From positions 1-64,000 of the forward strand of contig CAMFGY010000015.1 of the NCBI GenBank assembly GCA_945952065.1: 64,000 nt of DNA. Direction: 5' to 3'. This DNA is from an uncultured Burkholderiales bacterium. GTDB lineage: Bacteria; Pseudomonadota; Gammaproteobacteria; Burkholderiales; Burkholderiaceae_C. Below, piece after piece: positions 6,176-9,413 of this stretch. The first letter of the stretch is position 1, and every line of letters starts with the position of its first letter. The notes under the pieces were generated by a model that was not told the origin of the DNA, made no database searches, and saw nothing but the letters and a program-made list of their open reading frames with translations. Position numbers and translations under genes: made by a program.

Positions 6176-6487
6176 TCAGTAACTCAGCGTGCGCTTGGCC
6201 ACGTCGACCCGCAGCAAGGCCTTGCTGAGCGCGCTGCTGGTGGCACGGGCGTAGTCCAAGGCCCAGGCCGGATCGGCAAAAGCCTGCGGGCCCGCCGCCG
6301 CAGCCACGCCCAAGATCTTGTCGGCCAACAAGACCTTGCCCGAGCCACGCATCGGCTCGCATTCGTACTTGACGTACTGCTCGTCCAACCATTGCCGGGC
6401 CGCCTCGAAGCTCAAGACTTCGTCGGCATCCACCGCCAGATCGAACTGCTGCACCGGACTGAACACGACCTTCACTTCACTGCGCAT
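6176..6487 (-). CDS. Conserved small hypothetical protein downstream of aroG
   Basis: A 103-residue soluble protein beginning MRSEVKVVFSPVQQFDL, acidic in its first half and with an alanine-rich helical second half. No domain is recognised. It lies 45 bp downstream of aroG on the same strand and is probably cotranscribed with it, since no terminator lies between. The segment EQYVKYECEPMRGSGKVLLADKIL could be part of a ligand or nucleic-acid interaction surface, but this is not a recognised motif. Its codon use fits its neighbours, so it is very probably a real gene of unknown function. Confidence 0.75.
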   Translation of the reverse strand: MRSEVKVVFSPVQQFDLAVDADEVLSFEAARQWLDEQYVKYECEPMRGSGKVLLADKILGVAAAAGPQAFADPAWALDYARATSSALSKALLRVDVAKRTLSY

Positions 6488-6532: not shown

Positions 6533-7660
6533 TCAGCGCCGCGCAGCCTTGACGGCCGCACTCAGCACCTCCAGCGTCGCCAAGGAATCATCCCAGCCCA
6601 GGCAGGCGTCAGTGATGCTCTTGCCGTACTCGAGCTTGCTGGGGTCGTCTTTGCCCGGCGTGAACTTCTGTGCACCGTCGTGCAGATGGCTTTCCACCAT
6701 CACGCCAAATATGTGCTGGCCGCCGGCCATGATTTGCGCCCCGACATCGCGCGCCACCTCCAGCTGACGCAGATGCTGCTTGGCGCTGTTGGCATGCGAG
6801 CAATCCACCATCAGCGTGGTGTCCAGCTTGGCTGCAGCCAGGTCCTTGCAGGCCGCGGCCACGCTCTCGGCGTCGTAGTTGGGTGCCTTGCCGCCGCGCA
6901 GGATGACGTGGCAGTCCTTATTGCCCTTGGTTTCAACGATGGCGACTTGGCCGTTCTTGTGCACCGACAAGAAGTGGTGCCCACGCGCTGCCGCCTGGAT
7001 CGCATCGGTGGCGATCTTGATATTGCCATCAGTGCCGTTCTTGAAGCCAATGGGGGCGGACAAGCCCGAGGCCAGTTCGCGGTGCACCTGGCTCTCGGTG
7101 GTGCGCGCACCAATGGCGCCCCAGGAAATCAAATCCCCGATGTATTGCGGCGAGATCACGTCCAAAAATTCGCTGCCTGCCGGCATGCCCAGTCGGTTGA
7201 TCTCCAGCAGCAATTGGCGAGCGATGCGCAGGCCTTCGTCGATGCGGTAGCTTTCGTCCAAGTAGGGGTCATTGATCAAGCCTTTCCAGCCCACCGTGGT
7301 GCGCGGCTTTTCGAAGTAAACGCGCATGACGATTTCCAAGCTGTCGGCGTACTTCTCGCGCTGCACCATCAGGCGGCGGGCGTAGTCCAAGGCCGCAGCG
7401 GGGTCGTGAATCGAGCAAGGGCCGATGATCACCAACAGGCGATCGTCTTTGCGCTGCATGATTTTGCGGATGCTTTGGCGCGTGTTGGCAATCAGCTGCT
7501 CCATGGGCGTGCCACGGATCGGGAAGAAGCGAATCAAGTGCTCCGGCGGCGGCAGTGGTGTGATGTCGACGATGCGCTCGTCGTCGGTGGCGCTGGTCTT
7601 GTCCTCTTGCGAGTACCAGCGCTCGGCCTGAATCTCCGGTTTGGTGGACTTGGCATTCAT
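6533..7660 (-). CDS. aroG: 3-deoxy-7-phosphoheptulonate synthase (DAHP synthase, AroG type)
   Basis: A 375-residue class I DAHP synthase that condenses phosphoenolpyruvate and erythrose 4-phosphate, the first step of aromatic amino acid synthesis. Diagnostic segments are GPCSIHDPAAALDYA, RVYFEKPRTTVGWKG, GARTTESQVHRELASGLS, DCSHANSAKQH and a C-terminal DACLGWDDS. The roughly 40 residues before the catalytic core include the regulatory N-terminal extension found in feedback-inhibited AroG/F/H enzymes. The start at 7660 has a GGGAAAGTGAGAG purine tract upstream. A leader peptide and terminator precede it on the same strand (7720-7866), so transcription is very likely controlled by attenuation. 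The small gene at 6176-6487 probably shares the transcript. Confidence 0.95.
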   Translation of the reverse strand: MNAKSTKPEIQAERWYSQEDKTSATDDERIVDITPLPPPEHLIRFFPIRGTPMEQLIANTRQSIRKIMQRKDDRLLVIIGPCSIHDPAAALDYARRLMVQREKYADSLEIVMRVYFEKPRTTVGWKGLINDPYLDESYRIDEGLRIARQLLLEINRLGMPAGSEFLDVISPQYIGDLISWGAIGARTTESQVHRELASGLSAPIGFKNGTDGNIKIATDAIQAAARGHHFLSVHKNGQVAIVETKGNKDCHVILRGGKAPNYDAESVAAACKDLAAAKLDTTLMVDCSHANSAKQHLRQLEVARDVGAQIMAGGQHIFGVMVESHLHDGAQKFTPGKDDPSKLEYGKSITDACLGWDDSLATLEVLSAAVKAARR

Positions 7661-7719
7661 CGGCTCACTCTCACTTTCCCTAGTCTGGATTCGAATTCAA
7701 ATGTCGCTGCGCTCAGACG

Positions 7720-7753
7720 AAAAAAAACCGCCGGGTGTTGGACCCGGCGGTTT
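7720..7753 (-). terminator. Attenuator terminator of aroG
   Basis: On the minus strand an 11-bp perfect stem (AAACCGCCGGG / CCCGGCGGTTT) with a 7-nt loop is followed by eight T residues. It lies between the leader peptide stop (7789) and the aroG start (7660), so it would end aroG transcription early. Its 5' arm contains CCGCCGG (plus-strand 7744-7750), which is exactly complementary to CCGGCGG inside the leader peptide gene (plus-strand 7808-7814). Pairing of those two would form the antiterminator. Confidence 0.9.
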
Positions 7754-7788
7754 CTTGAGATTTGTGCGCTTTGCTTGCTTTGCTTGGC

Positions 7789-7866
7789 TTACGCGCTCGC
7801 CTCTCGGCCGCCGGTGCGGTCAGAGAACCAAAAAAAGCTAAAGAAATAAATCTTTGGCGAGTGCAT
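7789..7866 (-). CDS. Aromatic-rich leader peptide of aroG
   Basis: A 25-codon open frame, ATG at 7866 to TAA at 7789, encodes MHSPKIYFFSFFWFSDRTGG followed by REASA. Residues 7-14 are Y-F-F-S-F-F-W-F: five Phe, one Tyr and one Trp in a row of eight. It stops 35 nt before the terminator stem that precedes aroG. This is the arrangement of classical amino-acid attenuation: stalling at the Phe/Tyr/Trp codons would free CCGGCGG (codons 18-20) to pair with the terminator 5' arm. A competing 1:2 hairpin (CTCT..CCGC/GCGG..AGAG) is also visible. No Shine-Dalgarno is evident; see the promoter entry for a possible leaderless start. Confidence 0.85.
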   Translation of the reverse strand: MHSPKIYFFSFFWFSDRTGGREASA

Positions 7867-7873
7867 GGCTTTG

Positions 7874-7882
7874 AATGTAGCA
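7874..7882 (-). promoter_or_regulatory. Candidate extended -10 promoter for the aroG leader
   Basis: On the minus strand TGC-TACATT (TGn extended -10 plus a 4/6 -10 hexamer) lies 7 nt before the leader ATG, with no recognisable -35. Initiation from it would begin at or very near the ATG, making the leader peptide mRNA leaderless, which fits the missing Shine-Dalgarno. This is an inference from spacing only. Confidence 0.35.
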
Positions 7883-7890
7883 CGCGTTTC

Positions 7891-7922
7891 TTGCAGGCCG
7901 CCGCGCTGCTGCGGCCTTGCAA
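7891..7922. other. Inverted repeat after tldD
   Basis: TTGCAGGCCGC at 7891-7901 and GCGGCCTTGCAA at 7911-7922 form an imperfect inverted repeat with one extra base. It sits about 20 bp beyond the tldD stop. There is no T-run on the minus strand, so if it terminates tldD it is not a canonical intrinsic terminator. It may also separate tldD readthrough from the aroG leader promoter. Confidence 0.45.
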
Positions 7923-7940
7923 CAACAGTCGCGAGGTCGC

Positions 7941-9413
7941 TCAGGCGGTGCCGCCCACGGTCAAACCATCGATACGCAGGGTCGGCTGCCCCACTCCCAC
8001 CGGCACGCTCTGACCCTCTTTGCCGCAGACGCCAACGCCCGTGTCCAGCTGCATATCGTTGCCAATCATGCTGACACGGGTGAGAGCCTCAGGGCCGCTG
8101 CCGATGATGGTGGCGCCCTTGACCGGGTACTGGATCTTGCCGTTTTCCACCCAGAAGGCTTCGCTGGCCGAGAAGACAAACTTGCCGGATGTGATATCCA
8201 CTTGGCCGCCGCCAAAGTTGGTGGCATAGATACCGCGCTGGATGCTGGCCACGATCTCTTGTGGGTCCTTGTCGCCGCCCAGCATATAGGTGTTCGTCAT
8301 GCGCGGCATCGGCGTGTGGGCGTAGCTTTCGCGACGGCCATTGCCTGTGGGCGCGACCTTCATCAAGCGCGCATTCATCGCGTCCTGGATATAGCCCTTC
8401 AAGATGCCGTCCTCGATCAGCACATTGCACTGCGAGGCGCAGCCCTCGTCGTCCACATTGAGCGAGCCGCGGCGATCCGGCAGCGTGCCGTCGTCCAAGA
8501 CCGTGACGCCCTTGGCTGCCACGCGCTGACCGATGCGCCCCGCGAAGGCGCTGGAGCCCTTGCGATTGAAGTCGCCTTCCAGACCGTGTCCGACGGCTTC
8601 GTGCAGCAAGACGCCAGGCCAGCCCGGGCCAAGCACCACGGTCATTTCGCCGGCCGGTGCCGGGCGCGACTCCAGATTCGTCAGCGCCGCATTGACGGCT
8701 TGGTCGACATAGCGGGCAATCATTTCATCGGTGAAATAGGCCAGACCGAAGCGCCCGCCACCGCCGCCGCTGCCGACCTCGCGGCGGCCATTGCTCTCAG
8801 CAATCACGGTGACGCTCAAGCGCACCAGCGGCCGCACATCGGCCGCCAAGGTGCCGTCGGCGCGCGCTACCAACACCACCTCATGCTCAGCCGCCAGCCC
8901 AGCCATCACCTGCGCAACACGCGGGTCTTTGGCCCGCGCCATGCGTTCGGCACGTTCCAGCAGCGCGACTTTCTCGGCGCTGTCCAAGCTGCCGATCGGG
9001 TCCGCGGCGCCGTACAACGAGCGACTGCCCGACACGGTCGGCTGACCGGGCACCTTGACGCGCCGGCTTTGCCCGGCAGCCGCAATGGCTCGCACGGTCA
9101 AAGCGGCATCGATGATGGCGGCTTCGGAAATATCGTCGGAGTAAGCGAAGGCTGTTTTCTCCCCGGCCACTGCACGCACCCCCACGCCTTGGTCGATGTT
9201 GAAGCTGCCGCTCTTGACGATGCCTTCTTCCAAACTCCAGCCCTCGGCCCGGGTGGTTTGGAAATACAAATCCGCGTCGTCCACCCGGTGTTCGGTGATC
9301 AAACGCAAGGCTTTGGTCAGCACAGCCTCGCTGAGGCCATAGGGCTCCAGCAACTGGCTGCGGGCTGTGGCCAGGCGGGCAAGAGTAGGTTCGATCGAGA
9401 TCATGCGGGCCAT
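7941..9413 (-). CDS. tldD: Metalloprotease TldD
   Basis: A 490-residue zinc metalloprotease subunit that works with TldE/PmbA; the complex degrades unfolded peptides and matures microcin-type peptides and CcdA. The zinc signature [11 protein letters not shown] is at 271-281 (His 271, Glu 272, His 276). The glycine-rich stretch [13 protein letters not shown] and the C-terminal cysteine-containing [18 protein letters not shown] are typical of TldD. Length matches the family (E. coli 481). An in-frame ATG at 9404 is an equally possible start. No tldE/pmbA gene is in the window, which is usual since the two are often unlinked. It is followed by the aroG leader on the same strand. Confidence 0.94.

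Follow-up and report, generated by a model that had tools for sequence, protein, structure and literature searches.

A probable ribosome-mediated attenuator of the DAHP-synthase gene aroG, conserved across a family of Burkholderiales

The minus strand of the window (the whole 64 kb stretch of DNA that was analysed) carries at positions 6533–7660 a gene for 3-deoxy-7-phosphoheptulonate (DAHP) synthase, the enzyme at the entry to the shikimate pathway. Its product matches the NCBIfam model TIGR00034 (aroFGH) with 524.9 bits, against a cut-off of 173.2, and scores 534.4 bits with the AroG equivalog model PRK09261, which is below the cut-off of 568; the isozyme name is therefore not settled, and the name aroG used in the original prediction has been kept. 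The same genome contains a second DAHP-synthase gene, which is 59% identical. On the same strand, tldD ends at 7941, just upstream of the leader described below, and a 103-residue open reading frame (ORF; 6176–6487, minus strand) that has no NCBIfam or Pfam match is located just 3′ of aroG.

Upstream of aroG, and likewise on the minus strand, the sequence displays an extended −10 element, TGCTACATT (7874–7882), which includes the hexamer TACATT with its 3′ end 7 nt upstream of the leader ATG. The leader ORF of 25 codons, MHSPKIYFFSFFWFSDRTGGREASA (7789–7866), is assigned from the sequence and by comparison with relatives and is frame-specific. The aromatic run Y-F-F-S-F-F-W-F occupies leader codons 7–14 on direct reading, and these codons (Y7, F8, F9, S10, F11, F12, W13 and F14; 7825–7848) are assigned as the sensing codons from the sequence and from their position in 124 distinct leaders. 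Pairing in the helices analysed below defines segment 1 (CUC … CC; 7818–7825), which forms the 5′ side of hairpin 1:2 and overlaps the last aromatic codon, segment 2 (CCGGCGG; 7808–7814), which is the antiterminator strand and lies within the leader ORF, and a GAG (7803–7805) that forms the 3′ side of hairpin 1:2. Segment 3 (CCGCCGG; 7744–7750), recognized by its complementarity and by helices 2:3 and 3:4, is the 5′ arm of an intrinsic terminator hairpin composed of segments 3 and 4, AACCGCCGGGT-CCAAC-ACCCGGCGGTT (7726–7752), which is evident from the sequence and from the pairing of helix 3:4 and runs into a U tract of eight T (7720–7727). Direct reading of the sequence bears out the minus-strand coordinates and the description of all of these parts in the original prediction, including its claim that the antiterminator is exactly complementary to the 5′ arm of the terminator (7814–7808 with 7750–7744). 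The attenuator-like arrangement in front of aroG is a real observation.

The 147 nt leader RNA has a folding energy of −56.9 kcal/mol (z = −4.9), which was equalled by none of 200 shuffled sequences, and the leader is the only ATG ORF of 12–40 codons with at least five aromatic residues in eight on either strand of the 64 kb window. A scan for consensus promoters and terminators reported neither in the region 7600–8000. The promoter scan requires a −35 in addition to a −10 element, and no −35 element is evident before the leader; the overlap of the terminator stem with the U tract probably explains why the hairpin escaped the scan.

Conservation was assessed in 110 DAHP-synthase loci (L001–L110), consisting of 80 named contig loci, which are the best 80 of 593, and of 30 loci taken from 36 matches in the genome of the window and 17 others of its genus. 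An aromatic leader, defined as an ORF with at least five aromatic residues in eight just upstream of aroG, is present in 77 of the 110 loci (these including the best 80 of 593), and a U-tailed terminator is found 15–48 nt after the leader stop codon in all 77. Since these leaders were chosen by their aromatic content, this content is not evidence in itself, in contrast to their position, frame and structure. Among the named carriers are members of Roseateles, Pelomonas, Polaromonas, Variovorax, Hydrogenophaga, Acidovorax and Comamonas, and further to Caballeronia, Paraburkholderia, Cupriavidus lacunae, Massilia, Janthinobacterium and Rugamonas; in the genus of the window the leader is present in 15 of 18 genomes. 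The 33 loci without a leader comprise 12 that contain the second DAHP synthase (L002 and L100–L110), one at a contig edge (L027), one divergent member (L023) that is still matched at 62.8 bits by the covariance model R1 introduced below, and 19 others, including three from Polynucleobacter, two from Cupriavidus and three from the same genus as the window (L097–L099). The attenuator has apparently been lost from the last three, which have no leader before aroG; L097 has kept the terminator, and L098 and L099 show an apparent terminator remnant.

Outside the recorded leaders, 13 comparable aromatic ORFs were found in 1.32 Mb of sequence (both strands of L001–L110). Six of them pass a test for a terminator plus a complementary segment and turned out to be already recorded aroG leaders, extended to an in-frame ATG farther upstream; the remaining seven were counted as a group. 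The rule behind this test is crude, as it passes 32 of the 66 aroG leaders seen and not that of the window, and it therefore serves as a specificity check only.

The addition of 56 leaders from a sample of the order to the 77 described above gave 133 leaders with 126 distinct ORFs, 124 of which have a recognizable segment 2. In these 124 leaders the aromatic codons are concentrated about 13–33 nt upstream of segment 2: at each codon offset from −11 to −5 relative to segment 2 the aromatic share is 65–95%; it is down to 29% at offset −4 and no higher than 3% between −3 and +4. Over the seven codons at offsets −11 to −5 the aromatic fraction amounts to 0.785 in the leader frame, compared with 0.269 and 0.202 in the other two frames and 0.325 in shuffled sequences. 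This excess is confined to the leader frame, a result that a merely U-rich stretch would not give. Segment 2 ends at most 18 nt before the stop codon in 90 of the 124 leaders, so that a ribosome located at the stop codon would often cover it. The Phe codons of the leaders are mostly UUU (366 UUU and 207 UUC), as opposed to a preference for UUC in aroG itself (83 UUU and 338 UUC in the genes of the order sample); the prevalence of UUU in the leaders may keep the stalling stretch unstructured or slow.

The three helices were evaluated in a MAFFT alignment (A1) of 66 of the 77 leaders, from which near-duplicates were left out. The proportion of paired cells is 94.2% for helix 2:3, 91.8% for helix 3:4 and 95.5% for helix 1:2, and the covariation scores of all three exceed those of all 500 shuffles, as well as those of every version in which the partner strand was slid by 1–3 columns. 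The clearest compensatory position is the base beside the invariant GGCGG, which is found as C-G, U-A, U-G and A-U in helix 2:3 and as G-C, A-U and U-A in helix 3:4. Five pairs of helix 3:4 and three of helix 2:3 are invariant, and the covariation rests on few flanking pairs because the core GGCGG/CCGCC hardly varies; the compensatory changes also partly follow clades. In neither helix 2:3 (236/500) nor helix 3:4 (385/500) does the count of pairs that change on both sides surpass the shuffles, and all 500 shuffles reach at least as many pair types in helix 3:4. In helix 1:2, sliding the partner strand by +2 raises the number of two-sided cells from 9 to 13, and an alternative register of this helix scores lower, with 90.9% of cells paired. 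In the predicted structures the antiterminator and the terminator would exclude each other, as would the 1:2 hairpin and the antiterminator; three helices, mutually exclusive by this prediction, are thus conserved, with some compensatory change. The comparison with relatives that had been proposed in the original prediction therefore found both the aromatic codons of the leader (77 leaders) and the pairing of the stems (three helices) to be conserved.

The effect of a ribosome on the choice between these helices was simulated for the 77 leaders by forcing the nucleotides under the ribosome to remain unpaired, with the RNA cut just after segment 3 and an assumed footprint extending 18 nt upstream and 13 nt downstream from the first base of the A-site codon. 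With the ribosome at the second-last to fourth-last aromatic codon, helix 2:3 exceeded 0.5 in 95–97% of the leaders; moving the ribosome to the final aromatic codon reduced this proportion to 73% and moving it to the stop codon to 42%, and removing it altogether gave 51%. In the full leader RNA, the terminator formed in 97%. A ribosome at the first aromatic codon also brought helix 2:3 above 0.5 in 90% of the leaders, and the simulation therefore cannot tell codons apart. The 77 leaders include 52 close members, whose aroG is at least 70% identical to that of the window, and 25 more distant ones below 70%; in the latter, helix 2:3 exceeded 0.5 in 68% without a ribosome and in 24% with the ribosome at the stop codon. 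For the leader of the window itself the values were 0.995 with a stalled ribosome, 0.58 with the ribosome at the stop codon and 0.87 for free RNA, which suggests a modest equilibrium contrast between the ribosome states. Taken with the positions of the codons, the simulation and its assumed footprint indicate that the control codons are likely to be placed such that a stalled ribosome would mask segment 1 and free segment 2.

Among 129 distinct upstream sequences, 79 have a TANNNT motif with its 3′ end 5–9 nt upstream of the leader start, and 200 mononucleotide shuffles gave 8.9 such sequences on average and 16 at most. This placement is seen in 58 of 64 sequences whose aroG is at least 70% identical to that of the window and in 21 of 65 elsewhere. 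As TACATT ends 7 nt before the ATG, the predicted transcription start is at or next to the A of the ATG and, given the −10 element 5–9 nt before the start codon in the 79 sequences, the transcript is often likely to be leaderless, here as well. The original prediction had noted that the leader lacks a Shine–Dalgarno sequence and may be translated without a 5′ leader. Indeed, no Shine–Dalgarno-like motif precedes the leader start in any of the 52 close members, the window included, and one does so in 1 of the 25 more distant leaders, in a test of low sensitivity that finds motifs before only 13 of 30 aroG start codons; in 50 of the 52 close members, moreover, an extended −10 element has its 3′ end 6–8 nt upstream of the leader AUG, which strengthens the suggestion of a leaderless start. 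In 17 of the 25 more distant leaders, mostly of Burkholderia and Oxalobacteraceae types, TATAAA or TATAGT was found by eye about 30–45 nt upstream of the leader (L052–L055, L058, L059, L061–L063, L065, L068, L069, L073, L075, L076, L078 and L079); a stricter script rule finds these motifs in 12 of the 25 more distant and in none of the 52 close leaders. A short 5′ UTR is probable for leaders of this type, which likewise show no clear Shine–Dalgarno sequence, and the promoter position thus appears to differ between lineages, being 30–45 nt upstream in some and compatible with a leaderless layout in others.

A covariance model of the element (R1, 152 positions) was built in order to follow its distribution; the E-values are rough, as the calibration was short, and the searches of large samples used stricter filters, which lose weak matches. 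When model matches are counted irrespective of the downstream gene, 147 of the 150 family genomes searched have an R1 match at E ≤ 1e-4. The three genomes missed are about 90% complete, and one family genome has a second, weak match. In the order sample, 87 of 250 genomes match at E ≤ 0.01 in a total of 96 places, 61 of which reach E ≤ 8.6e-8 and are spread over 14 family labels. Of these 61 strong matches 56, including that of the window, were examined, and every one of them immediately precedes an aroG homologue; at least four aromatic residues in eight are present in 55 of their leaders and three in eight in the remaining one (L164). None of the 14 weaker matches examined (of 35; L167–L180) is upstream of aroG.

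In the class sample, 17 of 276 genomes match R1 at E ≤ 0.001. Three of them are from the family of the window, four are strong matches from outside the order (labels f60 and f65), all upstream of aroG and with aromatic leaders, and ten are weak, none of these being upstream of aroG. As an independent check, the sequence in front of aroG was inspected in the 40 best matches to this gene from outside the order, in two of which a contig end truncates it: an aromatic leader with a terminator occurs in one (label f60), and no such leader was found at the other 39 of these loci from other orders of the class. R1 matches none of the 12 loci of the second DAHP-synthase gene. As judged from these sequence searches, almost every genome of the family appears to carry the element; many but not all genomes of the order sample have it, few do among those sampled from the remainder of the class, and none of the 12 loci of the second DAHP synthase yielded it. 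Other targets of the same element were considered and set aside, the weaker R1 matches mostly being treated as chance terminator matches. A chance origin of the element itself is rejected by the frame test, the paralogue control, the class-wide control and the locus-wide ORF count.

The element is very probably a ribosome-mediated transcription attenuator for aroG. The trp/phe-type attenuation put forward in the original prediction finds support, at the level of sequence comparison, in the conservation of codons and stems and in the position and frame of the aromatic run in relatives, and the gene that would be regulated codes for a DAHP synthase, an enzyme in the synthesis of the control amino acids themselves, as expected for an attenuator of this type. 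We infer the start site, translation, stalling, termination in the cell and the amino acids that act as follows. Transcription would begin at the leader AUG or only a few bases away from it, with a ribosome translating the leader behind the RNA polymerase. A shortage of charged Phe, Tyr or Trp tRNA would stall this ribosome on the aromatic codons, where it would cover segment 1 (CUC) and leave segment 2 (CCGGCGG) free to pair with the emerging segment 3; the terminator would then be prevented and aroG transcribed. With an ample supply of aromatic amino acids, the ribosome would reach the stop codon, usually near enough to cover segment 2, or alternatively would leave, in which case hairpin 1:2 would take segment 2; with segment 2 occupied in either way, segments 3 and 4 would form the terminator and transcription would stop before aroG.

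The same attenuator might in practice respond to one amino acid, mainly Phe or, in some lineages, Trp, instead of all three, a reading that we regard as possible but tentative. Phe is the commonest residue of the stalling zone (445 of 914 in the 124 leaders) and is present there in all 124, Tyr being found in 112 and Trp in only 77; moreover, the C. glutamicum leader AroR (Phe-Tyr-Phe), which precedes aroF, is induced by Phe and not by Tyr limitation according to a review (PMC11802643). On the other hand, all three residues occur in the zone of 68 of the 124 leaders, which would fit the common first step of the pathway. It is quite unlikely that the terminated leader RNA or the leader peptide also acts in trans in the manner of S. 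meliloti rnTrpL/peTrpL: the predicted start at or near the AUG recalls rnTrpL, an attenuator RNA whose 5′ end is the AUG of the leader ORF (PMC7298713), but a comparison by eye shows the peptides to differ widely except in the aromatic run and in the codons near segment 2. A broader proposal would make a leaderless attenuator the main ancestral control of aromatic entry in Burkholderiales, with the AUG start as part of the sensor, reading without a Shine–Dalgarno sequence, release of termination by any of the three tRNAs, and an RNA of about 147 nt and a peptide acting in trans as rnTrpL/peTrpL do; as a whole we consider it unlikely.

Two further explanations were considered. The hairpin could be a mere terminator of tldD and the leader ORF incidental, given that tldD is just upstream on the same strand (ending at 7941) and that L097 keeps the terminator without a leader before aroG; this is hardly credible, however, since 124 distinct leaders keep the aromatic codons in frame and in register, most members have a promoter element immediately in front of the ORF, and segment 2 is conserved as the complement of the terminator. 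A different read-out, in which aroG would be controlled at translation or the RNA would act as a sensor that binds a tRNA or a protein, is most improbable. Rfam gave no match at the gathering score within the window, so that no known sensor RNA is indicated, and the U-tract terminator present in 77 of 77 leaders, together with the in-frame aromatic run, favours attenuation by a translating ribosome.

The proposed aroG attenuator resembles the E. coli trpL, pheL and pheST leaders, which likewise combine a leader peptide rich in the end product, mutually exclusive helices and a U-tract terminator. The element described here differs from them in controlling a DAHP synthase, in mixing Phe, Tyr and Trp codons, in having segment 2 inside the leader ORF and, probably, in having no 5′ UTR in many members. 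The C. glutamicum aroR–aroF attenuator was reportedly described by Neshat et al. in 2014, and earlier comparative work on attenuators is said to include that of Vitreschak et al. from 2004. As described in the review (PMC11802643), the C. glutamicum system similarly places an aromatic leader before a DAHP-synthase gene, in a distant phylum and with no Trp given for the leader. The original prediction had stressed that the attenuator is attached to a DAHP synthase; this attachment has a precedent in C. glutamicum aroR. The S. meliloti rnTrpL/peTrpL system controls trpE(G) through Trp codons, and trans functions have been reported for it (PMC7298713). The Rfam family RF01859 (Phe_leader) has nearly the same layout and gives a weak full-length alignment at 7718–7867; membership was rejected at 16.8 bits (E = 2.4), compared with a gathering score of 55, although Phe_leader is the only amino-acid leader family found in the window at E up to 10.

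RNA control has likewise been proposed before the DAHP-synthase genes aroF and aroH of Shewanella, as computational predictions in a list (PMC2659441); for a Tyr-tRNA-sensing aroF attenuator, the same paper cites a 1980 E. coli study. A comparative study (PMC5343134) describes the E. coli-type regulators TyrR and TrpR for gammaproteobacterial lineages, and nothing was found in the accessible passages on how Burkholderiales control the DAHP-synthase step. No description of an aroG attenuator in Betaproteobacteria was found in the accessible parts of the open-licence literature. The gene is not named in the text passages available from a genome-wide terminator survey (PMC2965389) and is absent from the main text of two papers on B. 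cenocepacia transcripts (PMC4603805 and PMC5688073). There is a minor, although appreciable, chance of an earlier mention in older or closed surveys. The kind of attenuation is classical, and what is new is the member in this lineage and its family-wide occurrence. The element would provide a concrete answer to the control of DAHP synthase in a family in which R1 matches 147 of 150 sampled genomes, and it deserves annotation. The probably leaderless leader and the location of the antiterminator strand inside the leader ORF are of specialist interest, and the diverse and often, as predicted, leaderless leaders constitute a natural set for studies of translation start and multi-amino-acid sensing.

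Leader-like ORFs were also observed before other genes. In two genomes of another family, with the label f27 (L169, 2425–2590, minus strand; L170, 296–461, plus strand), the ORF MITFSAVFNAYFYWYRSSRRLQGASLD and a terminator precede a gene other than aroG, of which a 174-residue piece of the product has no Pfam match; this is possibly another aromatic attenuator. In a genome of another order (L188, 1501–1648, plus strand), and not before aroG, a Phe-rich leader-like ORF, MCSFFRFSRFYFKRFFTRADGKQRKKPRTLPQK, is accompanied by a terminator-like hairpin.
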